A stretch of 55,354 nucleotides of DNA from Gracilaria domingensis (taxonomy: Eukaryota > Rhodophyta > Florideophyceae > Gracilariales > Gracilariaceae), in assembly GCA_022539475.1 (NCBI GenBank), contig VCMS01000350.1, positions 1 to 55,354 of the forward strand, read 5' to 3'. The notes under the pieces are model-generated. The model was not told the origin of the DNA. It ran no database searches and worked only from the letters and a program-made list of their open reading frames with translations. Below, one piece after another: positions 12,204 through 48,963 of this stretch. Position numbers and translations under genes: made by a program. Position 1 is the stretch's first letter; every line of letters starts with the position of its first letter.

Positions 12204-12221
12204 TTCTAAGTCGGGAGACCA
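12204..12221 (-). promoter_or_regulatory. Primer binding site
   Basis: Two bases inside the 5' LTR the minus strand begins TGGTCTCCCGACTTAGAA. TGG is the complement of a tRNA 3' CCA end, in the position expected for minus-strand primer binding. I cannot name the tRNA. Confidence 0.7.
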
Positions 12222-12223
12222 GT

Positions 12224-18345: not shown

Positions 18346-18578
18346 ATGAGTGCAGTACTGAATAAAAAGTAAATACGCTTGTGAATATTGCAGCTGCCTG
18401 CAATACGCGTTGGAGATGTACACTAGAGCTCTTCATCTATTTGTAACGGCAATATTTGTGACCTATTGCGCACCTCAAATTCGTAAAAAGCAGAAACTGC
18501 GGTGTCTCCTGGAATATCTGAACCAAGCACCCCTGCGCCCCAAGTATTTCGTTTCCTTACCCCGTTTATCTCCACAAC

Positions 18579-18724
18579 ATGGGAATAACGCCGAGAAAGC
18601 GAAATAGTATGCAGCGGAACAAGAGTGGACAGAAGAAGATAAGAGCATCGGATGATACGAATCAGGCTACAAGCACCGCACTTCCTAAGCGGAAGTCGTC
18701 TACGACGAAGGAGAGAGTCAGTGG
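18579..18724 (+). pseudogene. Gene Y: basic reading frame cut by element T3
   Basis: From ATG 18579 the frame encodes about 48 strongly basic residues (PRKRNSMQRNKSGQKK...PKRKSSTTKERVSG) and then runs straight into the T3 terminus at 18725. It resembles the basic tails of X and X-prime in composition only. It is probably the start of a gene interrupted by T3; the other half was not found. Confidence 0.4.
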
Positions 18725-19158
18725 CCCAGAAAGGCATGTGGATATGCGACGGATATTCGAGTGATGTACGGGTGATTATGCTATCAAGACTGCTCCAAGG
18801 ACGTGTTTGGATATTCAGTAGATACCCGTGTGATACGCGCTAGATGGGGGTGTGATATGCTTAAAGATGTGCAAGATGATGCACGGGTTCTGCCCCATGG
18901 TTGTAGCAGATGATGTAGCAGTTGATACACGGTAGATAGTTTTGCTAAAACTTTGAAAAATAAGGGCACAATAAAAAACACTGGCTTTTTTTTCAGAATC
19001 TAGTGCGCACTTGAAATATTTTGTTTAAAATAATTTTTATTAATTATTATAATAAGTGATTAAGGTAATGTCACCATTTTTGACACGCTATGGGTGACGA
19101 GTCTTCGTCACATATGTTTCATCGTCACGCCAAAACGTGGTCTAATTCAAGTCACGGT
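18725..19158 (-). repeat. 3' terminal and subterminal region of T3
   Basis: Begins CCCAGAAAGG, followed by a dense series of GATAY-type words (GGATATGCG, GGATATTCG, GGATATTCAG, AGATACCCG, TGATACGCG, TGATATGC), then AT-rich sequence and a 7-bp-stem hairpin at 19094-19111. It is nearly identical to the inverted copy at 37734-38166. Arrays of short subterminal motifs are typical of CACTA elements and serve as binding sites for the element's own proteins. Confidence 0.8.
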
Positions 19159-21117
19159 CTACCCAATGACACCACCGAGCCGTACCGAACTACCAAATTC
19201 TGGCATCCGCGGATCCAAGAAATGCCTCCTACCACAATGATCCAGGAACGTAATTGAGTGAGAAATCGAGGTGATGTCTTCAACAGTATGCTTCGTATCA
19301 CGAAGGCTGCCACGTCTCGGTCCCGATGATAGATCCACGGAGGGCACTCTAGTTATTCGATCTGTTTTCATCCCATAAACCCAATCCACCCGCACCATGT
19401 TCATCATTCTGGTGTAGATAAGCTGCTCCCCGGGTCGGCGAAAAGACACTTTGGCACTCCAAATTTCATCAATGCAGCCATAGAATACTTCTTTTTCAAC
19501 CTCACAGCTGTTCGAAAATTCTGGTGCACCCTCCTCCGCTTCAAACACTCCAGCTATCCAGCATCGCTGACGCGCGCGCTGTGTATCTTGTACGAGTCGC
19601 CGTCGATACTCCGACCGTCCTTCCAAATGGACCTCAACCTCACCGTCTGATATCAGCGCTTTAGGAAACAGTCGGAGGCTTGCGATGCGAATGTCATAGC
19701 TCGTTACGGAGAGGGCACCACGCGCGTAGTCCAGAGCTTGACGCAGTCGCTCAGAACCCTGAACCAAATAACTCCCGCCTTTCATACTCCGCACTGCTGC
19801 CTCAGCAACGCCTCCAGAATCCGAAGAGAGCTCGTTACTCTCCGCAGAGAACTCTTTCTGATTGCGATCCTGCAGCTCGAGTGCTTTGTCATTACAGCGT
19901 TCAGTATTCCAGTGTCTGCCAACATCAATACGCTCAATATTCGAATGTTGTTCAGGCTTGTTAATTTTCTTATCGAAGCCGCCATTGAACAAACGAAGAG
20001 CAAAGAGTGTGTGCGTCTTGTGAAACAGATTGGCCTCGGGCCAGTTAGTAGATGTCGTCATGTCCCCAAGTCGCCCTGCCACCCGCTCGACTATGAATTG
20101 AGAAACATTTCGAAGAAGACCACACTCCTATAATTTGTCATGTAAGTGGAGAGCAGCGTGGGTCGTTGGCGTTAAGCACAATGAATGTTCCTCATTCACG
20201 TAGAAAATATCAACGAAAAGGGAGTGAGCCATCTGCAGGAGACTTCTTAATTTCTTGATATGCGACACCGAAGAGCTAGTATCGAAAAGAACATGCGTTA
20301 TCCTGCAAGTTGCATACCACAGTTTGCTAATGCGAACATCAATTCACAGTCCTCGGAACAAGACAGGTCCATAGTACAAGGCAATATTCTTGTAGTCCTC
20401 TGCCTTAAAACCTGAAATGTAATCGAAAGACTGCGGTTGTCTTCCTCACTCTGCAGGATACCCCTGGTATCCTCTTTTTAACGATTGGTTGATGTGATGA
20501 ACTGTAAAGCGGCGCAACACAAATGGTGAGTTTCTTCGGATATATTGTTTGTGGGATCCAATACAAAGCGATGTCACGTGCTTCACCCATCCGAGGAGCC
20601 ATTGGTGCATCGGGTCATATGGCGTTCCTTTGACCACATCGATAGAGAGTTTTGATATCTCTGGACATCTCTTCATACCTGTGCTTTTCGTCAACCTCTC
20701 CAGTTCGGCACCACTAAGCAATGATGTCGTTGACTTATGCCTCCTCCGAACATCCGCCACCTCTTGATGTGTTCTTTGGCGCCGGTATTCGGATGTAATC
20801 CATGTGCTTCGCTCCCCTAAAAGCTCTCCTGTCATGGCCTGCTTTCTATCCTTTGTTCCCAGCTGCGGTAGTAAGCGCAAAGAGTTTCTAACGCTTTTCG
20901 CCTCTTTCTTGCACCTTCGACAAGGATGCTGCGCGTTGTGACCTTTCATGCCAATGAGTTTACTGGCTGCAGGCCAGTCTGCTGTGATAAACAGTACAAA
21001 CGCATACAAAATCCTCTGCTTTCCATCAGCGCAGTGCAGGCTGATACCGTTTTCCAGTTCTCTGAGATCCGCAACAACTGGTTGCAAGAAGCTGTCGAAC
21101 AATGTTTGGTCATGTGA
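19159..21117 (-). pseudogene. T3 transposase (tnp2 family), C-terminal half
   Basis: Continues the frame of 39567-38167 across the insertion of T. It includes LFDSFLQPVVADL, then ADWPAASKLIGMKGHNAQHPCRRC, then GTPYDPMHQWLLGWVKH, all typical of Transposase family tnp2 (a DDE-type catalytic region is expected here). It ends with a 307-codon C-terminal stretch (20082-19159). In-frame stops are TGA 20446-20448, TGA 20344-20346 and TAG 20128-20130. The last is shared with the copy in T. TGA on the plus strand at 21115-21117 is the target duplication flanking T. Confidence 0.85.
21115..21117. repeat. Target site duplication of T, left copy (TGA)
   Basis: TGA precedes CCCAGAGA at 21118 and is repeated after the right end of T at 38167-38169. 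Three-base duplications are usual for CACTA-type transposons. Confidence 0.88.
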
Positions 21118-21310
21118 CCCAGAGATGTACCTAGATACCCGTTGGATGGCGTGGAGATATGCGGTTGACATACTGTAGATTTAGTGGATATCCGTGAAAT
21201 ACACTTAAGATATCCCAAATAATCTTCCTCAAATTTATTTGACTCCTCAGGATATGCGTTAGATACCCCTGCCACATTCTTGATGTGCGAAAGATATGCT
21301 ACTGCAGTAG
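21118..21310 (+). repeat. 5' terminal and subterminal region of T
   Basis: Starts CCCAGAGATGTACCTAGATA. Within 190 bases there are at least seven GATAY words (for example AGATACCCG, AGATATGCG, GGATATCCG, AGATATCCC, GGATATGCG), many followed by (C/G)CG. This is the same motif type as at the other end, so both termini would be recognised by the same protein. Confidence 0.8.
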
Positions 21311-21366
21311 GTCCCTAGAACTGCCTCAAGAAGGAATTAAAAAACACGTATTTGGCCTACATGTGT

Positions 21367-21429
21367 TACAAAATACTGCATGCGGTATTATTTCTCTCTG
21401 AGAAATAATACCGCATGCAGTATTTTGTA
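21367..21429. repeat. Perfect 30-bp-stem hairpin
   Basis: Positions 21367-21396 are the exact reverse complement of 21400-21429, with a 3-base loop (TCT). The stem contains GCATGC and is otherwise AT-rich. It sits just inside the 5' subterminal region of T. No coding explanation. Confidence 0.95.
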
Positions 21430-21721
21430 GCAATCCGTAGATTCTTTCGCTATTGTCGTTTTCAAACTGTATCAAAACAAGAATCACATCAAAATTTGCG
21501 TGACAGTGGACGTGCAGCTGTTTGGCCCGTTCCAAGCACGGAGGGACACACTCGTCATCGTTGCCGCTTCAGCTCTCGCTCAATCCAAGGGCTCCGCGCG
21601 GTGAATCCGTGTTCTGCCTGCCAGCGAACCCATACCCCCCACAGCACCACCATGGCACGGCGGCTGCTTTCTTCCTTCGCCACGGCTGTGGGCCTAAAGC
21701 GATTCGGACGAAACACGCGCA

Positions 21722-22963
21722 ATGGAGCGAATGCAGCCTGGCGAGCCTCTCGGTGGCTTCAGAAATGTTGTGGCCGAACTGGATTCGATTCCCACTTTGT
21801 TGGCGACACTGGCGGTTGTCCTGGCTACCTTGGAAGGCGTTCTATGTCTTGAATCAGTTGATTCTTGTCGCTTGTCCAGAAGAAAGATGAATATCTTGCT
21901 TGCGTTTGGAGTTGTAGAGATCTCTGTCTTGTTGTGCTCAGAACTAGTATCGTTCTTAGAATTGCGTGATGCGTTTGAGCGTGAATTTTCACGTTTGCAG
22001 TTTTTTGCGCCATGTTTGTTTGCCGCCGGCGTGTTGTAGACACTTTCGGATGTGTATATCACGCTGGCCGTTGTAACAAAAAGTTGCATCTCGTGGATAC
22101 CGGTTTCAAATATGGGCTCAAGCAATGCATTGTTCGAGATTGTGCCTCTCACAATTTCGTTGATTCTCTCGCTGATCTTCATAGGCTGACGCTTCCGCTG
22201 GTGGTCTCGCGCGAATGCCGTCACGGCACAGGAAGCGCTCGCCGCTAAGGAGTCTGAACCATCTCTCCGACATGGTTTCATGGCGTTTGCAGCCAGATGG
22301 ACCGTGGCTATTAGTGGCATGCTTGTGGTAATTATGTCGCACTCCGATTGTGGTGAAGACGGACCCAGTTACTTTGCTGGTCTTCGCTATCTGTGGCATC
22401 CCGAGCAATGGATTGACGAGCAACATATTGGTACTAAGTTCTGTTACCATCGATACGAGAATTCAGATCGGGCCCTGGATGAATACATTGCTTCTGCGTT
22501 ACTGGACAGTACGTTACCAGTACCGAATGACCCTCGCCAAGTACATACGCTTCTCGAACGAGCACCTCAACATGTCGGGAACGCCATCGTTGGTACAGAC
22601 AGAGACTTTTGCAAAGAAGAAGAAAAGATTGCCTCTCGTCTTCAAAAAGTTGTGTTGATTGCCGGACACCTTGTTGTACTTCCTTTGCTTTTCGCGATTG
22701 TGGTTATCTTAGCGCGGAACTATGATAATTTGGATCAAGTTCACTATGAGGCGTTGGCGCCGCTTGCCGATGGCGCCATTATTCTTGCGTTCGTGGAGTT
22801 CTCCATCGGTATTAAGAACTTGCTCTGGGGTCTGAACGGCACCGCGAAAATGGAAAGAGCTGGGGTGTCTAATGAGGAAAGGCTGTGTACAATTCGCGGC
22901 TTGTCAGCAACTTCCCGTGATGCTGAAAGCAATTCTTGCGATTTCGGGATCAAGGTTGACTGA
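21722..22963 (+). pseudogene. Multi-pass membrane protein remnant, unknown family
   Basis: A single frame from ATG 21722 to TGA 22961-22963 (about 413 codons) is interrupted by TAG at 22037-22039 and TGA at 22187-22189. Hydrophobic spans are visible around LLATLAVVLATLEGVL, ILLAFGVVEISVLLC, LTISLILSLIFIG, WTVAISGMLVVIM, VVLIAGHLVVLPLLFAIVV and DGAIILAFVEFSIGI, so about six or seven membrane segments. Frame conservation across the stops says it was one gene. I do not recognise the family. It lies inside T and looks like captured cargo. Confidence 0.55.
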
Positions 22964-23801
22964 GACCTCTTTACCAGTACTGCCGTGACTCTTTGAGTAA
23001 TACAAATTATAACGAGACCGAAGAAAATCAGCCGACGTTTGCCGTGCACTCTTCCATCGCGCATAGTCTTATGACGGATCAAAACCTGCTTGCGTGTTTA
23101 TCATTCAGTTGTCATAACTGCCTGGTTGATTGTTGATTGGGGGTTCTGAATCATTTGAATGCTATCTAAATGGTGCAAGTGTTGCTCGAAAAGAGTTTGT
23201 TCCCGAAAGACACGTCATTGCTGGTTTGATGATCTCGGGAGCTGATGCTAGTTTACATTCTGTCACAGGACTGCAGATATAGCCGTATTTCGGATTCCGA
23301 AACCTCCATATGGTTACGCGCGAACCTCGTTCAAATGCATTATGCAGACATCAGAACCCGAGACTCGCGGTGCACACCTTCGAGTTCTTGGGACCCTTTG
23401 TACAAAGGGTTGTAGAAGCCTTTTACTGGCGCGGTGAAGAGTCGAACGAACGAGACTGCCCGGAAGTCCCGAACTTGAGACCCAGCAAACTAGTTATTGT
23501 AATTTGAAGATTTGAATTTGGGCCACAGGCCAGTTCCGCGTTCCTGGCAGAACGTTTTAGCAAGCTGTACAGTGGCTTAGAAACGAATTGCTGACCTTTT
23601 TATCCAATGTATCAAGTCTTCGTCCGTTCTAGATGACTGGTAGAGGCTTGGGATGAGTGTATTTGCCGCCCCACTCAGAACCGCGTACAATTCTGGCATC
23701 GAGAGCGGATGGTAGTTCCGAAATGCCGAAAAGAAGTTCGATTTTTCTCCGAGCGTATTCAACGGGTTTGTACGAAGATTGAATCTTTGTGTTTGCAAGA
23801 T
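22964..23801. other. No gene recognised
   Basis: Spacer within T between the membrane protein and FUN14 remnants. Short open stretches only. A local inverted word GGGACCCTTTGTACAAAGGGTT near 23390-23412 (CCCTTTGTACAAAGGG palindrome) is the only structure noted. Confidence 0.35.
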
Positions 23802-24259
23802 ATGCCTTCGACAACCTTCAAAGTGACGATTGCTGCTGGAACTGGTTCTTTTGCGGCAGCTGATGATTCAGCAAGAGAAGAGAGCGAAATGGTGCACAGC
23901 AGGCCACACTACCCGAGCTTGATCCGCTCGACCTCTCAAGTGAAAGAAAGCCAGTAGTTCAGTCTTTAGGTGAAAAATTGTCGTTCGGAGCCGTGGTTGG
24001 GTTCGCAACTGGATATTCAATCAGAAAAGTGGGAACACTTGTCTTGTTCCTCGTTGGCACTGAAGTGGTCGTCCTGCAGTATATGGCGTATCGACAATGG
24101 ATTGTGATAGATTGGCGACGTTTAGGGAGAAATATGTCTCCCAAATTTGACCGTTTAGCCTGGGATGGTTTGATGAATGTATTGCTGTATAAAATGCCGT
24201 TTAGCGCCGCTTTCTCTGGCGGTCTTGTAGCTGGCTTACGTCTTTCTTATCAAAAGTGA
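23802..24259 (+). pseudogene. FUN14-domain protein
   Basis: The FUN14 domain is in the frame ending TGA 24257-24259. From about 23930 it reads LGEKLSFGAVVGFATGYSIRKVGTLVLF, then QYMAYRQWIVIDWRR and FSGGLVAGLRLSYQK. The G-rich helix, the (I/V)DW motif and the terminal G-x2-AGLRL match FUN14/FUNDC proteins, small mitochondrial or plastid outer-membrane proteins with two or three membrane segments. That frame is closed upstream by two TGA codons at 23861-23866. A plausible N-terminus from ATG 23802 is in another frame, so there is a frameshift or an unrecognised intron. Probably cargo of T. Confidence 0.7.
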
Positions 24260-26312
24260 AGATCTGTTTCCTCGACATTCACTCAACGTGTGAAAAATCT
24301 TTGTTTTCGGAGTGACATCTTTGGGTAGACTGGTCAGAAGTGGTGTCTTACAAAGTTTGCTAGAATGCGTTCGATGTCAGGATCACGCATGTGAAGAGAC
24401 TTCTTCCGTTTTTGTGCCAAATATTTGCACGTCACATGCTTTTCGCCTTATCCTCTTCATGGCGAGCTGGTCTCATGTCAGACAAGCAAAAACTATTGTA
24501 GTAGCACAGAATGTTCGTCAGTGTGTTGTTGTTATTGTCGCGAGGAGAAATGATATGGATGCTGATACATAGCTCTTGACTGCGTAATTCTTGTTTTGGT
24601 AATAGTCTTGTTGGTGTGAACAAACGTGATTTGCGAAAGAGGAAGTGACCAAGTCAGTATCCATTTAAGTGATGGTCTCGAAGGGCTACAGTGTGTGATT
24701 CGGGGCTGTCGTTCCGCTCTGTGAGGACTTCCTGCATGGGCATTAGAGGTAGCTTAAAGTTTGAAAAAGAGCAAAAGGGCAACGCGAGAGTGCAATCTCG
24801 GTTAATGCACGACATCATACCTTGCGTATATAGAGAGTATCTTGTTAGCTTTTTCTTCATTCAATCGTTTCGTTTGTACTGCACGTGTGCGTCTTTTTGG
24901 TTCCGGCTGTAAAAAGACGGAGCCCATCTGTCATGTGGTCCAGCATCGGGCGATGTCTTCCAAATGTGTGGTGTAGGGGCAAACTTTGATTGTGAGAACC
25001 ACTGTTCCCCTACCTTACGGGTGTTCCAGACACATGTGTTCTTTCCTCCATAACAATACCGACCAATAACAAGGGTACTCTATATCAAATTCTGTCTTGT
25101 CTCTTTGTACTCCTGGCATGAGAAGCTTTCAAGAAGTCCTACGCAGCGAACAAGCTCGGAGTTCAATGTTTCTACAATACTTGTAGTGTCCACCATAATT
25201 GGCATCAGAAGCTGATTTCAACGTTCGTGAATAAGTTAAGTAAGCTTAGCACTATGCCGGAAGGAATTCCCTGCATGGGAAGACGCCTGCTCACAACCTT
25301 CCATTTCACGTTTCTGTCATGGGTTTTCTGTGAAATGGTGCAGGAGACTTTGTAGTGGCTGCTTCATACGCTGACTGGTACCGATAAAGCTCGAACGAGC
25401 TTCTTTTTAATGTAAAGTCCTTCGCGTACACGGCTTTATGGTTCTCAATCGGGTTCCTACTGGACTACAAAAACCTGTTCAATTGGTATTCAAGATGTGG
25501 AAGATATTCGCACATCTTTCACTGCGTTCTATTCCCAGTCTTCATTGGTTTCAAAACGAACGAACTTGTATATTGATATGAATACGACGCGATAGAAACT
25601 TTTGCAAGTGACTGTACGGTGGCGAAAGAAGTCAAGGTCACGTTTTCGAAGTTTTGCACAAGGCTACTCATCAGTTGGAGTCTTTACCTTTGGCGAAAGC
25701 CATTTTGATAAAAGTACTAACTGGTGAAAGTCTTTCGAGAAGTTTGCGACGCTTTCAGCTGTAGATACGGGTTGAGACGCAGAAGTACTAATCTTCAAGT
25801 ACATTGCTGCGCGATCGACGAGCGCACACTCCCGTACACATTGAAAGCCGTGCAATTCTGGGGTCTAGAGCTCGTTCTCCGGAAAGCGGGTGGACGCGTC
25901 TTGACGTATGGACATGGGATAAGTATAGGAGCAGAGCACCAGTCGGAAACCTGGATGGGAAGGAAAAGTGGATCCGTCTACGGCTGTACATTATCGGCTC
26001 TTTCACGGGGAACTGGAAAAGAGTCGATAGTATTGACTCGATACAGGTAGGTACGACCTTTGGATAATGTACAGGCTCCTTACAGCGAATCCGCTCCAGA
26101 TAAAAACTTGGGGGTCAGTGAAATGCCACGTCGGCTCAGATCGATGGCAAAACACGTCGGCACCGACCTGCGAAGGTAGGGGCCCCAACGCGAGGGGGAA
26201 GGTTGCGGAAAGAGATGTACGGCGCCTCGAGATACGGTTTTCGAAGAACAGCAGCGGCCACCGCGCTGCTTGTTCCAACGACAGACGCAGCGTAGAACTA
26301 CGACAAGCATGG
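24260..26312. other. No gene recognised; spacer inside T
   Basis: About 2 kb of AT-rich sequence with only short reading frames on both strands. The last 250 bases (from about 26060) are weakly similar, in inverted orientation, to 44330 and below in T3, and probably contain the degraded 5' end of the sulfite oxidase gene. Confidence 0.4.
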
Positions 26313-27546
26313 CGACGTTAGGCCGTCATGGTGTCAGCAGTACAACGGGCAGTGGGCCTTCACTTGGTATCAACGTCTGCTTCCACGCGCGCTTGCTGAG
26401 ACCGCAGTACCGCTAGAGAGGCCGAGGAGCATCCGTGAGAGGATTAAGAATCGTCTTCCTGAACTGCCAGACATTCCAGCGTCGCAGGTGCGAGCATGCG
26501 GTCGAGGGGCGGAGATGATCTTGGTGACATACGGAGATGGCGTGTTTGATATCATCGAGTTTGTCGAGAGCCATCCAGGAGGAGATCAAATTCTTCTGGC
26601 GGCCGGGGGTCCGCTTGAGACGTTTTTCGAAACATACGCGCTGCATCAGAACTTCTGATTCAAAAGTTCTTTGTGTACGAAATGTAGGAAGAAATGCGCG
26701 TGGGCAACTTGGTAATGGATGAACAATGGCACAAGCTGCGACAGGAAAGGAGCAAACAGGCAGCGCCAGCAGCGTACGCAATCGAACCGAAACGAAGCAA
26801 GCAGTTGATGGTGCGCTCTCAGCGCCCCTTCACGGCGCAGCCAGCCGCAGATGTTCTGGTGGCATCGTAGCTGACTCCCAACGATCTGTTTTACGTGCGC
26901 AACCACATGCAGGCGCCCGTGATCGACGGCGAGGACTACGAGTTGACGGTCGTGAGGCTGGAGGGCGAAGTGTTCGGAGAATTGGCGCTCGAAGATCTGA
27001 ATACCAAGTTCCCGAAGCATACGGTGGCGTCGGCGCTGCAGTGCACGGGAAACCGACGGACGGAGCTGAACGAGGTGCGGACGGTGAAGGGCGGCACTTG
27101 GGACGTGAGCGCCATCGGCAACGCCGTTTGGAGCGGCACACGACTGACGGACGTGCTCAACTACGTGCAGCAGCAGAACGGGAAGGGCGCGTTGATGGCC
27201 GGTGTGCAGCACGTGTGGTTCGAGGGCCTGGACGAGGAAGTTGCGTCGCAGACGCGCTACGAAGCTAGCATCCCGGTGGACGTGCTGCGTAGGGTGAGCG
27301 ACGTGGTGCTGGCGTACGAAATGAACGGCGCGGAGCTGCCGCGCGACCGCAGGTACCCGATCCGGGCGTTGGCGCCGGGCGTGGTGGGCGCGCGCAACGT
27401 GAAGTGGGTGGGCAAGGTGGTGCTGGCGGCGGAGAAGAGCGCGTCGCACTGGCAGCGCAAGGACTACCGCTGCGTAGGCGGCGTGGACGCGGCGGGCGAG
27501 GCGGGCGAGGCGGGCTACGGCGCGGCGCCGAGCATCCAGAAGATGC
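26313..27546 (+). pseudogene. Sulfite oxidase remnant in T, truncated by a retrotransposon
   Basis: The cytochrome b5 heme domain is at about 26470-26658: VTYGDGVFDIIEFVESHPGG, then LLAAGGPLETFFETYALH, with the HPGG heme histidine. The frame then stops (TGA 26656-26658). The molybdopterin domain runs in another frame at about 26845-27546 with LTPNDLFYVRNHM, KFPKHTVASALQCTGNRR (the cofactor-binding Cys), VWFEGLDEE, VLAYEMNGAELPRDR, PGVVGARNVKWV and SHWQRKDY. This b5-plus-Mo order is that of animal-type sulfite oxidase rather than nitrate reductase. TAG at 26868-26870 is CAG in the T3 copy. The dimerisation domain is missing because the inner retrotransposon starts at 27547. Confidence 0.88.
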
Positions 27547-28738
27547 TTACGATCCCTACGATGAGGCAGTGTCCAAAATTGGCCATGAACTGTTTGACCT
27601 ACACGTCAGAATCGAGAAAATATTGCGCCCGCTTGCTTCTCTCGATAAGCCACAAAGTCTTCAAAAGTTTACAAAGAAAGCCAACAAAAGCTCCCCCTCA
27701 ATATTTGCAGCCAAAGACTTAGCCTTTGGCAAGTTTGCCACCGTCACCGCGCTTGTGAACATGCTCTTCGATGAAGACAAAAACTTGCAGCCCCCACAAG
27801 TTTCCAACCACATTAACGACAACCCCACAAAAGGTCATACCGCGCACACACCCAGTGAACCAAACGCAAACGATATAACGTATGCATCCATGGTCCGCCG
27901 CCAAATCCCGCCACCAGCAGCCACCCCAAAGCCGTCTCGGCTCCCGAGCATCAATCCCAATATTGACTCAGGAGAGCAGGAGAAAGACATCGACTTCAAC
28001 GACTTCACGATATCTCGGAAAAGTCTCAAACAAATGCGCCCCATTGCAATTGGCGCCTGTGGGTACGAACAAAAAGGATTTGCCTTGCTCCATACTCATC
28101 CCAACTTTCCGGCCCTTCGCAATGCAAAGTTTCTCACATCTATTCTAGCCAGAGGTGGACTGCGGGTTCCACTCACCGTTATGAGAACGTCAGACACCCA
28201 CACGTTCCTGGCCTACGCACCACTCAGTTGCCTCCCGAACATAGAGCAAGCGTACTCCCGCTTCCGTGAGTTAAATATCCGCCAAGGCGGTTTCCACGGT
28301 CTTCCTCCGTTAAAGGCTAAAGCCCTACAAAACATAACTGACGCCTGCGAAGGCGCTGAGAATGGCACCGAACTCTTCCACATAATCCACAGTCTCCGCT
28401 CTGAAATATACCGTTTGGAAGACAAAACGCTCTCTTGGAGGCCCAAGCAGTACTTCTCCGACGCCCTACGTTTGCATGAGGAAGACTGCTATAACAAGTT
28501 CAAGAACAGACACCCCGACTCAAACCTACAACCAGTCAATCCACCTCCTCGCTCCAGAAGCCGTCAAGCCGCCAACGATGGAGGAAACGGTGAAAACGAC
28601 CGCCCACAACGAGAACTGCTACGCCGATGCACCACAGCCACGGATGCAGCTCATCGAACTGATGCCTCTTTAGACAACCCTTTGCGCAACACAGCCGAAG
28701 AGACGCTCCCCATCCCTTCTGGTTCACCTGCCCTCTGA
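27547..28738 (+). CDS. ORF1 of the non-LTR retrotransposon, possibly 5'-truncated
   Basis: About 395 codons from the element's left edge to TGA at 28736-28738. No retrotransposon-derived start codon is visible at the edge; the frame happens to read in from the sulfite oxidase sequence. The protein is hydrophilic with a middle domain (RPIAIGACGYEQKGFALLH...RVPLTVMRTSDTHTF) and a basic tail (PPRSRSRQAANDGG). No zinc knuckle was recognised. By position it would be the nucleic-acid-binding, particle-forming protein. Confidence 0.55.
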
Positions 28739-28970
28739 CGCCAGTCGACGCTGAGCGGAGCTTTGCGGCTACCTCCATCCCAGCGTGGGCAATCGAATAC
28801 GAACGACGTTGTAATGGTGCCCAACGCAGCACAGGTTGGGGACTCAAACAACCGCTTCAGCGCATTGGGTGCTGCTGAGGCGGCAAACAACCCAGAGGAC
28901 GGGGTAGGCGAAAACGATTTGTCGCTTGAGTAGAACCCTCAAGAACCTTCCTTTTCGCTAACCGATTACA

Positions 28971-31412
28971 ATGTCTCTACCTCCAACCGTAGGTGACTGC
29001 CCCCATCCTGATCATATATTCAACTACAGAATCCCCACGATGGAGTACGTTCCTCGCACGCTTCTACGCGACTTTATAGAACTCTACTTTCATCTCCTCT
29101 ACAATTACAACACCGCACACTCCATCACCATCCAACACCACTGCCTTAATCGGATAGTTGCGACACCCAAACTCGTTTTCCGGAAGGATGGTAAACGAGA
29201 GCCTCGAAACCGCAATACACCCTCACTCCATCGGTGCATCAAACGTCGCATATCGATGGCACTCAGAGGAGAATGGACTACCCTTCTCGACGAAGCGCTA
29301 TTGGCACACATGCAGCAGCCCAACACCCCACATCAGCAACGTGACCCACACCTCCGTCGCTGCCGCAAGGCCTTCATGGCAGGAGAGTACACAAAGGCCA
29401 CCAACGCCCTTTGCTCACACACGCCACCAGTGGCACCATCCTACCAGGCCCGTGACACTCTCCAGGAGCTCCATCCACAGCCCACGATCCCTGTCAGCCC
29501 CACGCCCCGACAACACCTGCCAATCCCGCTGAAGATAGGAGAAGACACAATTCGAAGAATCATTCGTCGAATGGCTGTCACTCCAGGCCCCGGTCCCGAC
29601 GGCATGCGTCCCAGGTTCTTGAAGTACCTTCTGGCATATGCAGGGGGTCAACCCCCCGATAGACCGATATGCCAAGAGCTGACCGAGTTTACGAACGCCA
29701 TCATAGCGGGTAAACTACCGCAAGGAACGCAAACCTGGTTCGCTACTGGAACCTTGATTGGCATCCAAAAAAAAGACCCCTCGAAACTTAGACCGCTCGC
29801 AATGGGTCTGGTTTGGAGAAGATTTGTCGCACGAGTCCTGGCCGTCAGTGTGTCTCGCGACCCGGACTTGCTTGCGTACCTACAACCCCACCAATTTGCA
29901 GTCGGAATGGCATGCGGAACCGAGGCGGTTATACACATACTCCGCGCATCATGCAACAAACTGAGACAAAAGGACCTCGTGGTGATCAGCATTGATGTGC
30001 GAAACGCGTTTAACTCAATAGAACGCCAATGTATTCTATCCGAGGTCACACAACATTGCCCGGGTATTGCGCGCTTTATCCATTATTGCTACGGTTCAAC
30101 AATACCGCTTCGATTTGGCGAGTTCGTCATCAACAGTGTAACAGGCACCCAACAGGGTGACCCGCTCCGTCCACTTTTGTTCGCGCTCGCGCTTCACCCA
30201 TTAATCCTGGACATCCAGTCGAGGTTCAGCCCTATTCTCAACTTGTTCCTTGCGGATGACGGCACCCTACTTGTCCCAAGATTAGAAGCGACAGCTGTGA
30301 TGAATTACGTCGTACAGAAAGGCGAGAAAAATGGGTTCGTACCCAACCTTGAGAAAACAGACGCTTGGTGGTGGGCAAAGCCAACAATCCCTTCTTTCCA
30401 AGCTACCATTACATCTGCAGCGGCAATCCCAGTTCTCGGCTCTCCGCTCGGTCATGCCGATGCTTCGACGGTAATGATGAAAGAAAGAATCAAGAAACAG
30501 GAACGGTTGGTGAACGCATTAGCCTCCTTGAACGATCCACACATGGCGTATCTTCTGTTACGATTCTGCGCCGGAACGTGCAAAATGATCTACACAGTGA
30601 GAACGACACCGCCGCATTTGACCCGTGATATTGTCAAACTCTTTGACGAGGCACAGCGAAGTGCGTTCCAAACACTGCATAGAAAACTTTCGCCGCCCGC
30701 CTGGGAGCAGGCCTGTCTCCCGTTGGGCAAAGGCGGACTGGGACTGACTAAACTCGAATGGATTTACCAAGCAGCCTACACTTCGTCCTTTTTGGCTTCT
30801 TGGTCACTTATACAAAGTGCTGTGCACACCGCTCTCACGCGTTTCCAGGTCATATCCTCTTACCAAATCGACCTAGCCCGAATAGCAGGCTCCGTGCAAA
30901 ACACTTATAATCTTCCCACTGAGTTCTCCTATGACCACCTTACGACGATGGCGCAACAGAAAGGCGCGATTCCGCACTTCCAACACACCTACAGCGAGGG
31001 AATTATCAACCATATCTTCGACAAACAAGCACCAAAATGGGACTCCACAGCGCAGCATGTGCGCATGCGAATAGCTAGAATGCGCTCAACGAGCACCAAT
31101 GAAGCCTGCTTGCCATTCACGTCCTTCGTGAATGCAGTTTTTAACCCGACCACAAGTCCGGAGATTTGGAAAACAATGATCGAATTGCGCATCAGTGAAG
31201 TTATGTTCAGCGCCAACACACCCTGTCCAAGCTGCGCTGCGGCGGCCTACACGACCGTTCCAAAGCTGGATAAACTGGGTTACCACGCTATGGTGTGCCC
31301 AGTAGGCGTAGGAGCCACGCGCAGGCACAACGCCTTACGCGATGTCCTTTACACCTTACTCAAAAGACCGCCATTGTGCCTGAATGTGTGCAGAGAATGG
31401 AAGTTCCCTTAA
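28971..31412 (+). CDS. Reverse transcriptase of the non-LTR retrotransposon
   Basis: An 813-codon frame from ATG 28971. RT motifs in order: TPGPGPDGMRPRFLK (about 29580), RPLAMGLVWRR, VVISIDVRNAFNSIER (catalytic Asp, about 29990), GTQQGDPLRPLLFAL, and LADDGTLL with the ADD catalytic pair at 30252-30260. After the thumb comes CPSC...H...C with RRHNALRD at about 31220-31340, the cysteine-histidine motif that precedes the endonuclease in restriction-like-endonuclease elements. The frame then ends at 31412, because the endonuclease continues in another frame. Confidence 0.9.
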   Translation: MSLPPTVGDCPHPDHIFNYRIPTMEYVPRTLLRDFIELYFHLLYNYNTAHSITIQHHCLNRIVATPKLVFRKDGKREPRNRNTPSLHRCIKRRISMALRGEWTTLLDEALLAHMQQPNTPHQQRDPHLRRCRKAFMAGEYTKATNALCSHTPPVAPSYQARDTLQELHPQPTIPVSPTPRQHLPIPLKIGEDTIRRIIRRMAVTPGPGPDGMRPRFLKYLLAYAGGQPPDRPICQELTEFTNAIIAGKLPQGTQTWFATGTLIGIQKKDPSKLRPLAMGLVWRRFVARVLAVSVSRDPDLLAYLQPHQFAVGMACGTEAVIHILRASCNKLRQKDLVVISIDVRNAFNSIERQCILSEVTQHCPGIARFIHYCYGSTIPLRFGEFVINSVTGTQQGDPLRPLLFALALHPLILDIQSRFSPILNLFLADDGTLLVPRLEATAVMNYVVQKGEKNGFVPNLEKTDAWWWAKPTIPSFQATITSAAAIPVLGSPLGHADASTVMMKERIKKQERLVNALASLNDPHMAYLLLRFCAGTCKMIYTVRTTPPHLTRDIVKLFDEAQRSAFQTLHRKLSPPAWEQACLPLGKGGLGLTKLEWIYQAAYTSSFLASWSLIQSAVHTALTRFQVISSYQIDLARIAGSVQNTYNLPTEFSYDHLTTMAQQKGAIPHFQHTYSEGIINHIFDKQAPKWDSTAQHVRMRIARMRSTSTNEACLPFTSFVNAVFNPTTSPEIWKTMIELRISEVMFSANTPCPSCAAAAYTTVPKLDKLGYHAMVCPVGVGATRRHNALRDVLYTLLKRPPLCLNVCREWKFP

Positions 31413-31837
31413 GAAAGCTCTCTGCCAGAGTGCGAACAGCCCGACTAGATCTGCTGATCGATGATTTGAGACTTAGCAATGTTCCAATTGGCATCCATGT
31501 TACGGTTGTGAGCCCCAGAACGGCTGCATATTTGCCCACAGCGGCAAAGGAGGCCGGAGGTGCCGCGTCAAGAGCTGAGAAAGCCAAGAGTACAAAATAC
31601 GCTGCACAGTGTGAAACAAACGGCGTGCGCCTGGTGCCGTTCGGCTTTGACATCCACGGGGGAGTGGGGCGCGAAGGCAAGGCCTTTGTACGAGAACTGG
31701 CAGAGTACACCAGCACATTACGCGGTACAAACCCCGCACAGGAGTACAACACAGTACTACTCCGAATGGAGCGTACTATACTCCAGTACACCGCGGCCGC
31801 TGTAAATCAAAGGGGCCTTTTGCCTACAACTGTCTGA
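31340..31837 (+). pseudogene. Restriction-like endonuclease domain, frameshifted from RT
   Basis: Shifted by -1 relative to the RT frame near 31355-31370. It reads LRKLSARVRTARLDLLIDD, then PIGIHVTVVSPRTAAYL, KAKSTKYAAQC and LVPFGFDIHGGVGREGKAF, and ends TGA 31835-31837. The layout follows the PD-(D/E)xK nuclease of R2/NeSL-like elements. Where an Asp is usual in the (I/V)DVTVV strand this copy has His, so cleavage activity is doubtful. In an active element this domain would nick target DNA for target-primed reverse transcription. Confidence 0.75.
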
Positions 31838-31896
31838 CAAACGGTCGAGACCCACCCAGCCCGTCGTAAATAAAGCCAACATCATCATCATCATCA

Positions 31897-32882
31897 ACCC
31901 CTCACCGACGCCCAAGAGATGAAGTCGAACGGATACAACCATCCCTCTCGTCGTCCGTTCTCGGAACTACAACCCGTACGCCGCGTACTTCGCGCAGCAA
32001 GACCACCACGCCAAGTCGCAGCCCCCCTGGCTGCAGGCGCCGCCGTCCTCGCAGTACGGCGCGCGCCCAGCGCGCCACCCATGGCGCCCTTCGTGTTCAG
32101 CGCATACAAACCATAACGAAACTGGCTGCAGCACTTCTTGTGGGCTGTTGTTAGATGTTGTACGAGTTTCAGCTTCTCTTGCTGTCTTGATGCTTCCTTC
32201 TGACCACAGCATTTCTCAGATTTTGTCTAGCATCTAGAGATCTCTCGCACTCTTCTGACACCATGGCTCCCCTGCTGATCAATCTGACATTCAACCTGAT
32301 TCTCTACACTCGGGTTCAGCACGCAAATGCGTAATCGTATAGGGTATACAACTTCTCTCATGTTTGTGTTGGAACGTCTTCAATCTGGAGACTGTCATTA
32401 CGTAGGGTCGAAAAGTGCGTCTTCATTTCGCTTACCCTATGTTCCTTTCTAACCTGCGAGCTAACTTCATTACGATTATGCAGCCATAACACTGGCTACA
32501 AACGTTTGTGACAAACCAATGTATATTTAATATTGAGGCTGTGCAATTGCCGATAAGATATACGTTTTGCGAAGTGCATGGAACAAGCCAAAATTTTGTG
32601 CATGGTAGAGAGTCGGACTTTGTGTGAAGCGAGCGTGTACTGGCACTAGCAGCGCTGCGGATGTGGAAAAAGTAAAAGTCAACGGCTGTTGGCGACAAAG
32701 GTATGTACAGGCACTACCATCATCTCAAGTCACTTTACTATCAAATTTTGTGAAGATGTGATACAAATCACATACAACTGTACGTCATCTATTTACCGAA
32801 TGCATATCACATACAAAAGTGCTATGGGTAGCGGTTGGAACCAAACTGTTACGGCTGATCACCCACGGTGTGTCGCTCGTAA
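31897..32882. other. Spacer of T shared with T3; short YNPYAAY-encoding segment
   Basis: The sequence from 31900 matches T3 (about 42290 down to 41060) in inverted orientation. Near 31965-32100 both copies can encode a short YNPYAAY(F/Y) stretch followed by a proline/arginine-rich tail, which might be the end of a captured gene. The rest, to gene X, is AT-rich without a gene. I do not recognise a family. Confidence 0.4.
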
Positions 32883-33869
32883 TCAGCGCTGGCCTGGGAC
32901 TCTCTTTGAAATTGAACCACGAGGGCGAATCGAAGCACTCGTCAAATTGGATCGACGCAGCGCTCTGCGAGCCCCACGTGCTCTCTGAGGTATAGAAAAA
33001 ACTTCACCTCTGTTCAACTGTTGCATTCTAGATGTACGTTGTTGTGATGTTTGGAGAACCATAGCACTGTGGGTGCTAGTGGCAGCAGACGCATTTCTGC
33101 GAATGTCATCAGGTGCACGAACTGGTAGTATCTGGTCTTCATTGTCGTAAAGCTGCGAATTGGCTGGTGCCCCATTCTCATTTTCAACCTCTGCTGACTG
33201 GGCCACATGCTCATAACTGGCATTTTCTTCCGATCCTTGAATTTCTTGCGCTCTGTTCAATGTATTTGTTGCTAGGCGAGCTCTTGCTTCCGAAGAAGCA
33301 GCGACATTTAACGTGCTTGGCACCTCGGCTATCTGCTGTGAAGTCTCTGCTGGAACAGTATTATTGTGAACAACGGGGCTTGACCTGCTTGTCGCTTCTT
33401 TGCTGCGAGGCCCAGTGTAATTTCTATCTCTGCGCATGGCCTCTTGAATTAACATGTTCACTGCCCATTGGCCTTCTGCGTATTTCAGAACGCGATAGTG
33501 CTTCTCAATCTTTGATCGGAGCTCAACCAAGATCGTGGGATGTTCCCTCTGAAGTATGCGGTACGTTAACTTTCCAATAGCGGCAAGCTGAAGAACATTA
33601 TAAACGTGTTCACGAATACTGCTCATGACTGACCTGACGAATTCTTCTGAGAGTGGTTTTATAGCGTCATACTCTCTGTTCTCCAAATCCGCGAATTTGC
33701 GGTTGAAGATCTCCCTCATGTTGCGCTGTGATCCCTTCCCAGCCACCCCATATTTGTATTTGTGGCGTGAATCAATCCGGGTAGGTATCGAGATACTGCG
33801 CTCTATGTTCTGGGTAGGGGCACTGTCACTTGCGGTGCTGCGCACCAACTCTGAGGAAGCTGGGTTCAT
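32883..33869 (-). CDS. Gene X of element T, accessory protein of the transposon
   Basis: Intact frame of 328 codons from ATG 33869 to TGA 32883-32885, divergent from the transposase gene (463 bases between starts). Residues about 35-165 form a conserved, charged, probably helical domain (NREYDAIKPLSEEFV, ILVELRSKIEKHYRVL, LIQEAMRRDRNY). The middle is low-complexity and the tail is arginine-rich (RARGARRALRR). The T3 copy is about 89% identical over the first 170 residues by eye. X-prime at 1049 is a distant relative. CACTA elements commonly encode a second protein that binds subterminal repeats, and X is placed to be that protein; this is inference. Confidence 0.6.
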   Translation of the reverse strand: MNPASSELVRSTASDSAPTQNIERSISIPTRIDSRHKYKYGVAGKGSQRNMREIFNRKFADLENREYDAIKPLSEEFVRSVMSSIREHVYNVLQLAAIGKLTYRILQREHPTILVELRSKIEKHYRVLKYAEGQWAVNMLIQEAMRRDRNYTGPRSKEATSRSSPVVHNNTVPAETSQQIAEVPSTLNVAASSEARARLATNTLNRAQEIQGSEENASYEHVAQSAEVENENGAPANSQLYDNEDQILPVRAPDDIRRNASAATSTHSAMVLQTSQQRTSRMQQLNRGEVFSIPQRARGARRALRRSNLTSASIRPRGSISKRVPGQR

Positions 33870-34331
33870 CGTTGACACAAGAAGCCCCAACTGCGGAAGA
33901 GTGGCAGAGTATCCTGAGAAGACAGCGATTTGCAGGTCCAGAAGCTGCCTCTGTCAAGACGAAGTGAACAGAGTGCTTCAAATGCAGTGGGATGTACGAT
34001 TTTGGGTAACCGTGAGAGGAAGAAAGAAGTGGGTTATCTGAAAAGTTGATGGGGAACTACAAAGAGGGTAGGGTGGTACGATGTGGAGCCATTGTGTAGT
34101 AGGACACCAAACCGATCGGGGTCGGGGGGCGAGGATGAAGGACATGGTGGGCTCTTAAATAGGCGAATGGTATGTGTACAGTTTCGTTTCGAATTGGCGC
34201 CATTTATGATTCAACCGAAACAAAAAGTCAGGTCAAGGCGTGAAGAAGATACTAACTTTCTTCGTATATACTAACACGTGCAGGTTGGAGTGCTTATGAT
34301 CTCATTAGAAGGTACATAAAATCAGGGGCAA

Positions 34332-37300
34332 ATGAGAAGGAGTCTGAACACGGATGAGGTGCAACAACCCGGGTTGCCAAAAAAACATCGCTCCGCACAC
34401 CGGCCTTTATCTTCGTCCCAGAACACTCTATCCTCTAAATCGATGTATGAGAACTCTTGGGAGAATGACATAAGAACAGATCACGCAAGAGATCAGACGA
34501 CCCGCGCAAGGCACACAGAAACCTCCCATGATCATTGCATCTCTTCAGAACACAGCCAGTCAGAACCCGCTGATAGTGACTTAATTTCATCGGCGCCGCT
34601 CCGTTGCTTCGCACAACATGCTCCACTACCTCAGGAAAGCAGTAGTTTTTTTAGACTGCCAAGCGCCCCCGCTCAATTTCGACAGCCCAGAATGACTCAC
34701 AATTCCCGTGTACAGCTCAGAAGAGCTCGACTGAATGACCAATAGCACACTCAGGATCCGAATGATGAAATTGGTTCAAACAGGCTTGACAATATAGTTC
34801 ACAACTCGGAGCATGTTTCGCCCGACAATCTATTGGCCCCAAAAGGTTCATCTCTTCCTTTGCAAGTCGCAGTTGACTATGAGAGCAGCTGCCCTCAAGC
34901 GTCTCATACCGATTTCAACCTTTATCCGAATCCCAATGACGAATTCACACAATTCGTATCACGTGATGAAGGCCATGCTGCAACCACATCGCCTGGAAGT
35001 AACGAGGCCGAGAGTGTACAAACTTCGAAAACGAGAAGTAACTACTCATCATCAGCACTGCGTAACACAGACGAATATTCGTCAGCACCAGAGCATGTTC
35101 TTGAGCATGACTTCTACAATGATGGCAAGGAAAGAGAACTTTGCAGATTGATGGATGTAGTAAAAATTGTCGAATACAGTGGAATGTCAAAGAACCAGTC
35201 TCGAGCCCTACTCCAAAAAAACATTTTGCAATCTCGGTATAGCTATGATGCTTTGATTCGACATGCTCTCTCGAAGTCTGCTGTTAGCAAACATTTTGGT
35301 GCGATATGTGCTGAGGAACACGTAGCAGTGTACACAACACACGAAACAGAGCAGGGATGTTGTCCTTCTGAAATATGTGATCGAAACGTCTCCAAGAATC
35401 GTAAGTTCTGGTACCGTAAACCGTCTGAGATGTTGAAATCCCTATGTGCTCAAAAAGACTCCTTTTCCGCTCTAATGGACGGTTGTGCGGAAGCGAAGGC
35501 CAGCATGCAGTCAGGTGGTGTAGAAGAGGGTGGATATATCAAAGACTACTACAGTGGCACATATTTCCGGAAGAGGTTCGGGAAGAAGGTACTCCATTGG
35601 AAGCCCGAGGAAGAGTTGTATATCTTTTTGACGTTCTCTTATGATGAATTTGAGGTCTTCAAAGGACGGAAGACCACCAAATCTTCATGGCCAATGATAT
35701 TTGTTGTTCTCAATTTCGACTGCAGACTTCGCTTTCAGGCATCGAACACATTTATAACAGCATTTGCGCCAGGGTCAAATGACCCAACATTGTTCGACAG
35801 CTTCTTGCAACCAGTTGTTGCGGATCTTAGAGAACTCGAAAACGGTATCAGCGTGCACTGCGCTGATGGCAAGCGGAGGATTTTGTATGCGTTTGTACTG
35901 TTTATCACAGCAGACTGGCCTGCAGCCAGAAAACTCATTGGCATGAAAGGTCACAACGCGCAGCATCCTTGTCGAAGGTGCAAGAAAGAGGCGAAAAGGG
36001 TTGGAAACTCTTTGCGCTTACTACCGCAGCTGGGAACAAAGGATAGAAAGCAAGCCATGACAGGAGAGCTTTTAGGGGAGCGAAGCGCATGGATTACATC
36101 CGAATGCCCGCGCCAAAGAACACATCAAGAGGTGGCGTATGTTTGGAGGAGGCTTAAGTCAACGACATCATTGCTTAGTGGTGCCGAACTGGAGAGGTTG
36201 AAAAAAAGCACAGGTATGAAGAGATGTCCAGAGATATCAAAACTCTCTATCGATGTGGTCAAAGGAACGCCATATGACCCGATGCACCAATGGCTCCTCT
36301 GATGGGTGAAGCACGTGACATCGCTTTGTATTGGATCCCACAAACAATGTATCGGAAGAAACTCACCGTTTGTGTTGCGCCGCTCTACAATTCATCACAT
36401 CAACCAATCGTTAACAAGAGGATACCAGGGGTTTCCTGCAGAGTGGGGAAGACCACCGGAGTCTTTCGATTACATTTCAGGTTTTAAGGCGGAGGACTAC
36501 AAGAATATTGCCTTGTACTATGGACCTGTCTTGTTCCGAGGACTGGGAATTGATGTTCGCATTAGCAAACTGTGGTATGCAACTTGCAGGATAACGCATA
36601 TTCTTTTCGATACTAGCCCTTCGGTGTCGCATATCAAGGAATTAAGAAGTCTTCTGCAGATCGCTCACTCCCTCTTCGTTGACATTTTCTACGTGAATGA
36701 GGAACATGCGTTTTGCTTAACGCCAACGACCCACGCTGTTCTCCACTTACATGAAAAATTATAGGAGTGTGGTCTTCTTCGAAATGTTTCTCAATTCATA
36801 GTCGAGCGGGTGGCAGGGCGACTTGGGGACATGACGACATCTACTAACTGGCCCGAGGCCAATCTGTTTCACAAGACGCACACACTCTTTGCTCTTCGTT
36901 TGTTCAATGGCGGCTTCGATAAGAAAATTAACAAGCCTGAACAACATTCGAATATTGAGCGTATTGATGTTGGCAAACACTGGAATACTGAACGCTGTAA
37001 TGACAAAGCACTCGAGCTGCAGGATCGCAATCAGAAAGAGTTCTCTGCGGAGAGTAACGAGCTCTCTTCGGATTCTGGAGGCGTTGCTGAGGCAGCAGTG
37101 CGGAGTATGAAAGGCGGGAGTTATTTGGTTCAGGGTTCTGAGCGACTGCGTCAAGCTCTGGACTACGCGCGTGGTGCCCTCTCCGTAACGAGCTATGACA
37201 TTCGCATCGCAAGCCTTCGACTGTTTCCTAAAGCGCTGATATCAGACGGTGAGGTTGAGGTCCATTTGGAAGGACGGTCGGAGTATCGACGGCGACTCGT

Positions 37301-37733
37301 ACAAGATACACAGCGCGCGCGTCAGCGATGCTGGATAGCTGGAGTGTTTGAAGCGGAGGAGGGTGCACCAGAATTTTCGAACAGCTGTGAGGTTGAAAAA
37401 GAAGTATTCTATGGCTGCATTGATGAAATTTGGAGGGCCAAAGTGTCTTTTCGCCGACCCGGGGAGCAGCTTATCTACACCAGAATGATGAACATGGTGC
37501 GGGTGGATTGGGTTTATGGGATGAAAACAGATCGAATAACTAGAGTACCCTCCGTGGATCTATCATCGGGACCGATACGTGGCAGTCTTCGTGATACGAA
37601 GCGCACTGTTGAAGACATCAACTCGATTTCTCACTCAATTGCGTTCCTGGATCATGGTGGTAGGAGGCATTTCTTGGATCCGCGGATGCCAGAATTTGGT
37701 AGTTCGGTACGGCTCGGTGGTGTCATTGGGTAG
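34332..37733 (+). pseudogene. tnp2-family transposase of element T
   Basis: One frame of about 1,130 codons from ATG 34332 to TAG 37731-37733, with in-frame stops TAG 34743-34745 (CAG in T3), TGA 36300-36302 (GGA in T3) and TAG 36762-36764 (also TAG in T3). The N-terminus is serine-rich and acidic. The central part has LFLTADWPAARKL-like sequence (FITADWPAARKLIGMKGHN), a CRRC cysteine pair and GTPYDPMHQWLL, hallmarks of Transposase family tnp2. The C-terminus, about 307 codons, is 97-98% identical to T3 by eye. It would cut and reinsert elements with these termini. Because of the stops, movement of T may have relied on another source of transposase. Confidence 0.85.
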
Positions 37734-38166
37734 AACGTGACTTGAATTAGACCACGTTTTGGCGTGACGATGAAACACATGTGACGAAGACTCGTCACCC
37801 ATAGCGTGTCAAAAATGGTGACATTACTTTAATCAATTATTATAATAATTAATAAAAATTATTTTAAACAAAATATTTCAAGTGCGCACTAAATTCTGAA
37901 AAAAAATCCAGTGGTTTTTAATGTGCCCCTATTTTCAGAGTTTTAGCAAACTTATCCACCGTGTATCAACTGCTACATCATCTGCTACATCCATGGGGCA
38001 GAACCCGTACATCATCTTGCACATCTTTAAGCATACCACCCGCCCATCTACCGCGTATCACACGGGTATCTACTGAATATCCAAAAATGTCCTTGGAACA
38101 GTCTTAAGAGCCTAATCACCCGTACATCACTCGAATATCCGTCGCATATCCACATGCCTCTCTGGG
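37734..38166 (+). repeat. 3' terminal and subterminal region of T
   Basis: Inverted match of 18725-19158. It contains the hairpin GTGACGA/TCGTCAC at 37782-37799, an AT-rich stretch, and a cluster of GATAY words read on the minus strand up to the terminus ...TCTCTGGG at 38166. Confidence 0.85.
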
Positions 38167-38169
38167 TGA
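38167..38169. repeat. Target site duplication of T, right copy (TGA)
   Basis: TGA directly after the right terminus of T. It also serves as the Ser codon (TCA, minus strand) of the interrupted T3 transposase. Confidence 0.88.
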
Positions 38170-48960: not shown

Positions 48961-48963
48961 ATC

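Follow-up and report, generated by a model that had tools for sequence, protein, structure and literature searches.

A nested tnp2 transposon with CCC..GGG ends and a probably captured block of host genes in the red alga Gracilaria domingensis

We examined a 55,354-nucleotide stretch of Gracilaria domingensis DNA, the whole of contig C350 (1-55354; hereafter the window), and searched the 77.9-Mb assembly from which it comes, in which C-numbers (C18, C39, C149 and so on) denote the contigs bearing the named copies or loci. Our analysis confirmed that the window holds a tnp2 element, T, which interrupts the transposase gene (tnp2) of a related, older element, T3, as the original prediction for this DNA had proposed. 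On sequence comparisons, it is very probable that T is a CACTA-like element with CCC..GGG ends nested in T3, that T3 is itself nested in a repeat encoding a DNA methyltransferase and SET protein, and that an ancestor of the family captured a block of host genes from the locus C149, with apparent later exchange between the two. To what had been predicted we add the captured host genes, a third level of nesting outside T3, and the finding that T3 has lost its far end.

The boundaries proposed for T, at 21118 and 38166 with TGA on both sides, could be read exactly in the sequence (Table 1). Window 18725-21120 aligns in reverse to T's 38166-35772 at 96.6% identity and 38167-41850 aligns in reverse to T's 35777-32099 at 89.8%, which bears out the proposal that the outside sequences are the halves of a minus-strand tnp2 gene of a relative. 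The two reverse alignments overlap by six bases, TGACCC, made up of the duplicated TGA and a CCC common to T and its target. Since target and T both continue with CCC (by chance), T taken alone permits a 6-bp duplication to be read, but the other copies share the CCC and differ in their flanks, so the duplication is 3 bp. Perfect 3-bp duplications were present in all four family copies with both ends (T, TGA; C267, TCA; C39, TTC; C18, TAA); in C121 the left end is gone and a duplication was not seen. Together with C37 and four small elements described below, 3-bp duplications flank every examined copy with both ends (9/9; ~6e-17 at 1/64 each).

The original prediction had suggested a search for other copies with the same termini and for a transposase locus of the T3 type lacking the insert, and both were found. 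C267, C39 and C18 have T's termini together with 3-bp duplications, and the site occupied by T is unoccupied in seven related copies (T's own tnp2, C115, C337, C267, C121, C39 and C18). When the right 600 bases of T were compared with the genome, 7 of the 8 close copies, T and T3 included, ended at the terminal base, the exception being C337, which stops 22 bp short. The left end gave 5 close matches, 4 of them beginning at base 1 (in C121 the initial 9 bases are absent); in C200, a relative with weaker similarity (86%), the match begins at base 3. Similarity running through 21118 or 38166 into the flanks was not seen.

Joining 38167 to 21114 had been expected to restore one frame. With lengths of 1419 and 669 bases, each divisible by 3, the two T3 pieces share one phase. 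Measured apart, the longer piece is free of stops and the shorter has one solely at its last codon; the rejoined frame would nonetheless terminate at 20446, which means that T3 carries further damage. The tnp2 copy inside T, which had been described as uninterrupted, contains no insertion but does have three in-frame stops (Table 1).

A third level of nesting is established on one side only, where the right end of T3 lies in the methyltransferase/SET repeat: all three fetched copies of this repeat continue uninterrupted through the T3 insertion point (18725). The repeat encodes a 1055-residue protein, with DpnA and CcrM as nearest solved relatives by sequence, in which an N6/N4-type DNA methyltransferase domain is joined to a SET domain, and it is abundant (at least 98 matches to a 440-residue query, from 96 of 821 candidates scored). 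DIRS retrotransposons carrying adenine methyltransferases are known (PMC5890265). The shortened right end of C337 abuts another copy of the repeat (C337:49818 region); a shared insertion site with T3 was ruled out, as orientation and join differ. A search for the left end of T3 in 44169-55354 revealed neither a fitting end nor a fourth subterminal array; an exact CCCAGAGA at 46666 has the wrong orientation and was rejected. To the right of the T3 remnant, window 44264-46400, with a zf-UBP domain on the minus strand, has 86-94% identity to C22:409042-411283 and part of C662 and is possibly another duplicated host gene.

T and T3 also match a sulfite oxidase gene, as do 8 places in all, namely C149 and 7 element copies including these two. 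The enzyme aligns with chicken sulfite oxidase (1sox) at 3e-108; its best relative is the transcript protein P0002 (74%), and its best named relatives are red algal (Agarophyton chilense, 61%; Chondrus crispus, 53%). At C149, open frames encode a 421-residue membrane-like protein without a Pfam match, a 539-residue sulfite oxidase and a 335-residue EF-hand protein (annotated as FGB62_149g013, 227 residues). Similarity to the elements begins at contig position 55845 of C149 and ends at 47279, within the EF-hand frame, alike in C39, C267 and C121, so that 8,567 bases (8.57 kb) of host DNA were captured; beyond 47279, C149 has merely short weak matches elsewhere in the genome. The block is nearly complete in C39 and C121, lacks 3.9 kb in C267, and has lost ~1.6 kb from its middle and right edge in T, C18 and C337. 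tnp2 sequence is present beside it in C267, C39, C121, T, C18, C337 and T3. Other matches to the enzyme domain were distant (C385 and C144, 37% and 33% to P0002; C12, short, 26 bits and 27% to P0002), and C149 is thus the one sulfite oxidase gene outside transposons that we found, although the assembly is possibly incomplete. Taking C149 as the donor would explain the sulfite oxidase match in T and T3. An earlier idea, that sulfite oxidase is a conserved transposon gene, was dropped because the C149 frames and the boundary alignments show an intact donor locus.

The block was most likely taken up once, then amplified and decayed, and a single capture is well supported by shared derived sites, counted with C149 as reference. 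Six pairs among T, C18, C121, C39 and C267 share 23-31 derived sites within the first 750 bp (<1 expected), and over the last 1.07 kb the number shared is 32-130 (5-7 expected) for five pairs among C39, C267, C121 and T3; in this last block T shares 15 with C18 and 18 with C337, its close kin. Several independent captures of the same host locus would accommodate the fact that mid-block C39 and C267 are much nearer to C149 than T is, and would also fit the differing right edges and the few last-block sites that T shares outside its kin, both given below. Yet the left edge is identical in the alignment in all five copies reaching it (C267, C39, C121, T and C18), with many derived sites shared there, and we consider repeated capture quite unlikely.

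Some observations weigh against our account and are set out here. The right edges of the captured block differ among copies (position 11222 of the fetched C149 sequence in C39, C267 and C121; 11049 in T3; 10916 in T; 10853 in C18 and C337), the shorter ones being read as later deletions. In the last block, T shares only 3 derived sites with C39 (1.0 expected, 160 sites), 4 with C121 (1.1 expected, 197 sites) and 6 with T3 (1.2 expected, 194 sites), and C18 shares 9 with T3 (3.4 expected). Towards its end, the sulfite oxidase frame of C149 is interrupted by a run of G. As the left end of T3 is lost, its target duplication cannot be seen. The terminal sequence is unlike the CAC..GTG of EnSpm and, because T's own transposase is broken, T would have been helped in trans or damaged after moving.

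Could the C149 locus instead be a truncated transposon copy, with sulfite oxidase an original transposon gene and useful cargo? The same gene block does stand in C149, and all but one of the 8 places with the gene belong to element copies. However, in the 12 kb fetched, C149 matches the elements solely from 2656/2668 to 11222, and not in the end or tnp2 parts. Neither boundary has an exact element end; the sole exact CCCAGAGA lies inside the block at 7250, and of the 6 further places at which end words with a single mismatch stand, the closest is 440 bp beyond the right edge. The EF-hand frame continues unbroken over the boundary, and elsewhere the half beyond it gives short weak hits alone. 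Finally, C149 has no stop in 500 sulfite oxidase codons, as is also true of C39, which has frame shifts, whereas the other six copies have 1 to 5. We regard this reading of C149 as quite unlikely and retain it as the donor.

The element copies of the gene are decaying. In-register stops per 500 sulfite oxidase codons number 0 in C149 and C39, 1 in C267, 2 in C337, 3 in T and C18, 4 in C121 and 5 in T3. T, C18 and C337 have a common 14-bp frame-shifting insert in the sulfite oxidase copy, and T and C337 have in common a ~4.35-kb insert with a reverse transcriptase frame. Elements thus continued to move with dead cargo, and transposition does not depend on the cargo. A signature of CpG decay was looked for and rejected, as C-to-T changes are barely commoner at CpG (0.043-0.099 versus 0.036-0.087 elsewhere; T, C18, C121 and T3).

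Two copies are mosaics. C39 is 97-100% identical to C149 at ~3400-10150 (fetched C149 sequence), 92-96% before and 80-88% after; C267 is 98-100% identical solely at ~8156-10150, 91-96% where present before and 81-89% after. Within the high-identity stretches, of the derived sites seen in T and C121, C39 and C267 share few (0-6 per block). This mosaic identity suggests later ectopic exchange between donor and transposon, in one direction or the other. Chimaeric assembly is a possible source of the same pattern, but would require two different breaks. In an outgroup comparison on the direction of the exchange, with P0002 as outgroup, sites grouping T, C18 and C337 agreed with C149, with the group or with neither in 18, 4 and 4 cases, those grouping T and C121 in 4, 4 and 1, and those grouping T, C121 and T3 in 0, 3 and 0; with P0003 the counts were 13, 1 and 8, then 3, 1 and 4, then 0, 1 and 2. 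Synonymous divergence (dS) between the two subfamilies is also uneven along the element (ORF2, the second open reading frame, 0.41-0.46; tnp2 N-terminus, 0.46-0.59; core, 0.09-0.12, with T3 at 0.22; C-terminus, 0.04-0.09), a sign of recombination.

We also considered that selection maintains the sulfite oxidase copies as working cargo. C267 has an open sulfite oxidase frame of 541 residues, the cysteine of the QCAGNRR motif, the molybdenum ligand, is retained in 8/8 copies, and ratios of nonsynonymous to synonymous divergence (dN/dS) against C149 are 0.33-0.60. However, all seven element copies bear stops, frame shifts or both, and dN/dS between pairs of decayed copies reaches 0.74. C39 and C267 look young solely where synonymous sites match the donor too (dS 0.011 and 0.022), as exchange predicts, and their flanks differ from the donor by up to 20%. 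Working cargo is in our estimate very unlikely. An inverted segmental duplication in place of nested insertion, although it would account for the long inverted arms that are 97% alike, is virtually untenable in view of the exact ends, the 3-bp duplications, the related empty sites, the halt of similarity at 21118 and 38166, and T copies with the same ends at unrelated places, the last of which refute it; two nested relatives had been predicted.

Open tnp2 frames, measured stop to stop, span 1137 residues in C115 and 1147 in C267. PF02992 matches the C115 frame at 2.8e-15 (56.5 bits; cut-off 28.6) and T at 4.5e-13, and PF18759 (Plavaka) falls below its cut-off (23.4 and 25.4 bits versus 26.3). 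C267 has, in order, TAD at 540, CRRC at 561, HAVLH at 815 and PEA at 855, and thus shows both a C(2)C and an H(3-4)H arrangement; we read the acidic residues of TAD and PEA as the probable second D and last E of the catalytic set. No solved structure matched the transposase by sequence to E 0.1. In the genome, tnp2 relatives gave at least 84 match rows (from 83 of 264 candidates scored), in which some copies are counted more than once. Over the tnp2 core, dN/dS of C267 against C39, C115, C337, T, C18 and T3 is 0.26-0.32, and 0.66 against C121; the corresponding ranges from C267 are 0.36-0.70 for the N-terminal part and 0.26-0.93 for the C-terminal part.

ORF2, on the opposite strand, is stop-free after Met36 in 5 of 7 copies (C267, C39, C121, T and C337) when read in the C267 register, and its dN/dS for C267 against the four copies tested from the other subfamily (C337, T, C18 and T3) is 0.30-0.40, compared with 0.97-1.24 in the two shifted frames. 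Inside the C267 subfamily the values are 3.0 for C39 (11 changes) and 0.77 for C121, so constraint is visible solely over the longer distance. A search of ORF2 against Pfam gave zero matches. Short subterminal repeats are concentrated at the element ends: with a motif set of our own choosing counted in 500-bp bins, 11-13 hits per bin fall at the window's three element ends, against a mean of 2.3, and no other bin reaches 11. Several of the repeats in C267 are spaced 11 bp apart. By analogy with maize TnpA (PMC5105172), the ORF2 protein may bind these repeats.

Within this genome, CCC..GGG ends are common to several families, in keeping with the suggestion that termini other than CACTA mark a distinct group. 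The right ends of C139, C96 and C227 (59-60% transposase identity) finish TCTCTGGG. A more distant relative, C37:455835-471753 (42%), begins CCCAGAGA, finishes TCACTGGG and has GTT on both sides; its right end and that of T3 are each one change from TCTCTGGG. Sister left ends (n = 8) read CCCAGAGAGGYACCTTGA, and 6 of these 8 contigs also bear a tnp2 match. Non-autonomous 433-bp elements have ends like those of T, with perfect 3-bp duplications in 4/4 fetched (TTG, TAC, GAC, CTG), these four having been selected because the end is visible on each side. A genome search with the end pattern of the small elements gave 60 places, versus 0 for the reversed control. A search with CCCAGARANRNACCTAGA allowing 2 mismatches was overall near background (129 versus 104 in the control), and from it we used only the 12 listed rows with 0 or 1 mismatch. 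Genome-wide on both strands, CCCAGAGA occurs 2557 times versus 2000 for the reversed word, an excess that hints at several hundred element ends. No CACTA or CAC start was found at the ends (CCCAGAGA stands in T, C267, C39, C18 and the 8 sister left ends), and family, sister and small elements alike are without Plavaka-type TGT..ACA or CATCA..TGATG ends.

PMC12730594 gives CAC..GTG for EnSpm families, mostly CA..TG for the wider group, and TGT..ACA or CATCA..TGATG for Plavaka; against these published ends of the clade CCC..GGG is unusual. The T family resembles CACTA/EnSpm elements (CMC, Transposase_21) in its tnp2, 3-bp duplications, subterminal repeats, second open reading frame and C(2)C and H(3-4)H motifs (PMC12730594, PMC4158355, PMC5105172), and we file it as related to them and working in a like manner, with one defining feature, the end, differing. 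It shares with fungal Plavaka elements a weak match to PF18759 and the 3-bp duplications also described for PlavakaB (PMC12730594), but the match is below cut-off and the ends differ. Capture of host genes by CACTA elements is well documented in plants (PMC5105172, PMC8903248, PMC13317346), where Pack-CACTA elements and the Tpn1 family of morning glory spread host gene segments between CACTA-type ends. Pack-CACTA elements are non-autonomous by definition, whereas T-family copies carry tnp2 with the captured block and the C267 tnp2 frame is open. A histone H3 gene captured by a fungal hAT element is likewise a housekeeping gene amplified by a DNA transposon, with dead copies and an intact original (PMC6710886); that case involves another superfamily, an intron-less copy and hundreds of copies, unlike the few copies of a multi-gene genomic block seen here.

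The present case differs from these in its CCC..GGG end, in its red algal host, in having tnp2 next to the captured block, and in a visible donor with exchange tracts. Among the literature matches listed (titles and abstract openings, with subscription journals mostly outside their scope) there was no CCC-ended CACTA element and no red algal gene capture. CACTA-type ends are treated as nearly fixed; packFinder, for instance, searched Arabidopsis with CACTACAA (PMC8903248), and annotation tools based on ends would overlook a large CCC..GGG clan. With donor, capture edges and graded decaying copies together in one genome, gene capture and gene-transposon exchange become directly open to study in red algae.

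We propose the following course of events. T would be a cut-and-paste tnp2 transposon on the CACTA/EnSpm side of the CMC group, encoding a transposase of ~1,130 residues and, on the other strand, a second gene. By analogy with its family, the transposase, with its putative DDE (aspartate, aspartate, glutamate) catalytic set, and probably the ORF2 protein too, would pair the CCC ends, cut, and join them to a target with a 3-bp stagger, the repair of which would give the duplication. An ancestor that preceded the split of T and T3 would have taken the 8.57 kb of C149 with its membrane-protein gene, sulfite oxidase gene and the front half of the EF-hand gene, perhaps through aberrant excision of neighbouring elements as in the model for Pack-CACTA (PMC13317346). 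The block would then have been amplified with the element, come to stand in two subfamilies and decayed as pseudogenes, with some copies subsequently exchanging sequence with the intact donor locus. T3 inserted first in the abundant methyltransferase/SET repeat, and T later in the tnp2 gene of T3 through a 3-bp staggered cut at TGA. More tentatively, a red algal CMC lineage may have swapped the CA/CAC end for CCC..GGG, and the host block of one of its families may keep exchanging with its donor, in partly concerted evolution.

Table 1. Coordinates of T, T3 and the surrounding repeat in the window
Feature	Position	Strand	Remarks
T, inner tnp2 (CACTA-like) element, 17,049 bp	21118..38166	+	ends CCCAGAGA/TCTCTGGG; C267, C39 and C18 end alike
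Target duplication TGA, left copy, 3 bp	21115..21117	+	
Target duplication TGA, right copy, 3 bp	38167..38169	+	
T left end	21118..21482	+	short GATAYSCG-type subterminal repeats, as far as the capture boundary
Captured host DNA, first block	21483..25041	+	remnant of the 421-residue membrane-like protein gene at ~21698-22960
Captured host DNA, second block	25085..25239	+	
Captured host DNA, third block	25413..27546	+	disabled sulfite oxidase copy from 26215
Later insertion	27547..31897	+	reverse transcriptase open reading frame 28962-31412; in C337 too, not in C18
Captured host DNA, last block	31898..32102	+	5' part of the EF-hand gene region
ORF2, second element gene	32883..33953	-	no Pfam domain; coding constraint between subfamilies
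T's tnp2 transposase frame	34332..37733	+	in-frame stops 34743, 36300, 36762
T right end	37967..38166	+	subterminal repeats; inner limit approximate
T3, first part	18725..21117	-	right end CCCAGAAA at 18725 and 3' part of tnp2
T3, second part	38167..44168	-	5' part of tnp2, ORF2, captured segment; no left end
T3 tnp2 frame beyond the insertion point	20446..21114	-	
T3 tnp2 frame ahead of the insertion point	38167..39585	-	
T3 ORF2 copy	39988..41057	+	broken
T3 captured segment	41940..44168	-	includes disabled sulfite oxidase copy
Outer third repeat (DNA methyltransferase and SET open reading frame)	15604..18724	+	host of the T3 insertion; outer limit provisional

Across the window, scans with Rfam (gathering scores) and for tRNAs gave zero matches, and FGB62_350g08 is the database entry for a protein encoded in it. 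At 53049-54656 lies another transposase, which matches the Plavaka family PF18759 above the cut-off (46 bits) and apparently belongs to a separate element. A long terminal repeat retrotransposon at 2072-12771 has direct repeats that are 99.1% identical and encodes a reverse transcriptase/integrase frame of 1075 residues on the minus strand.

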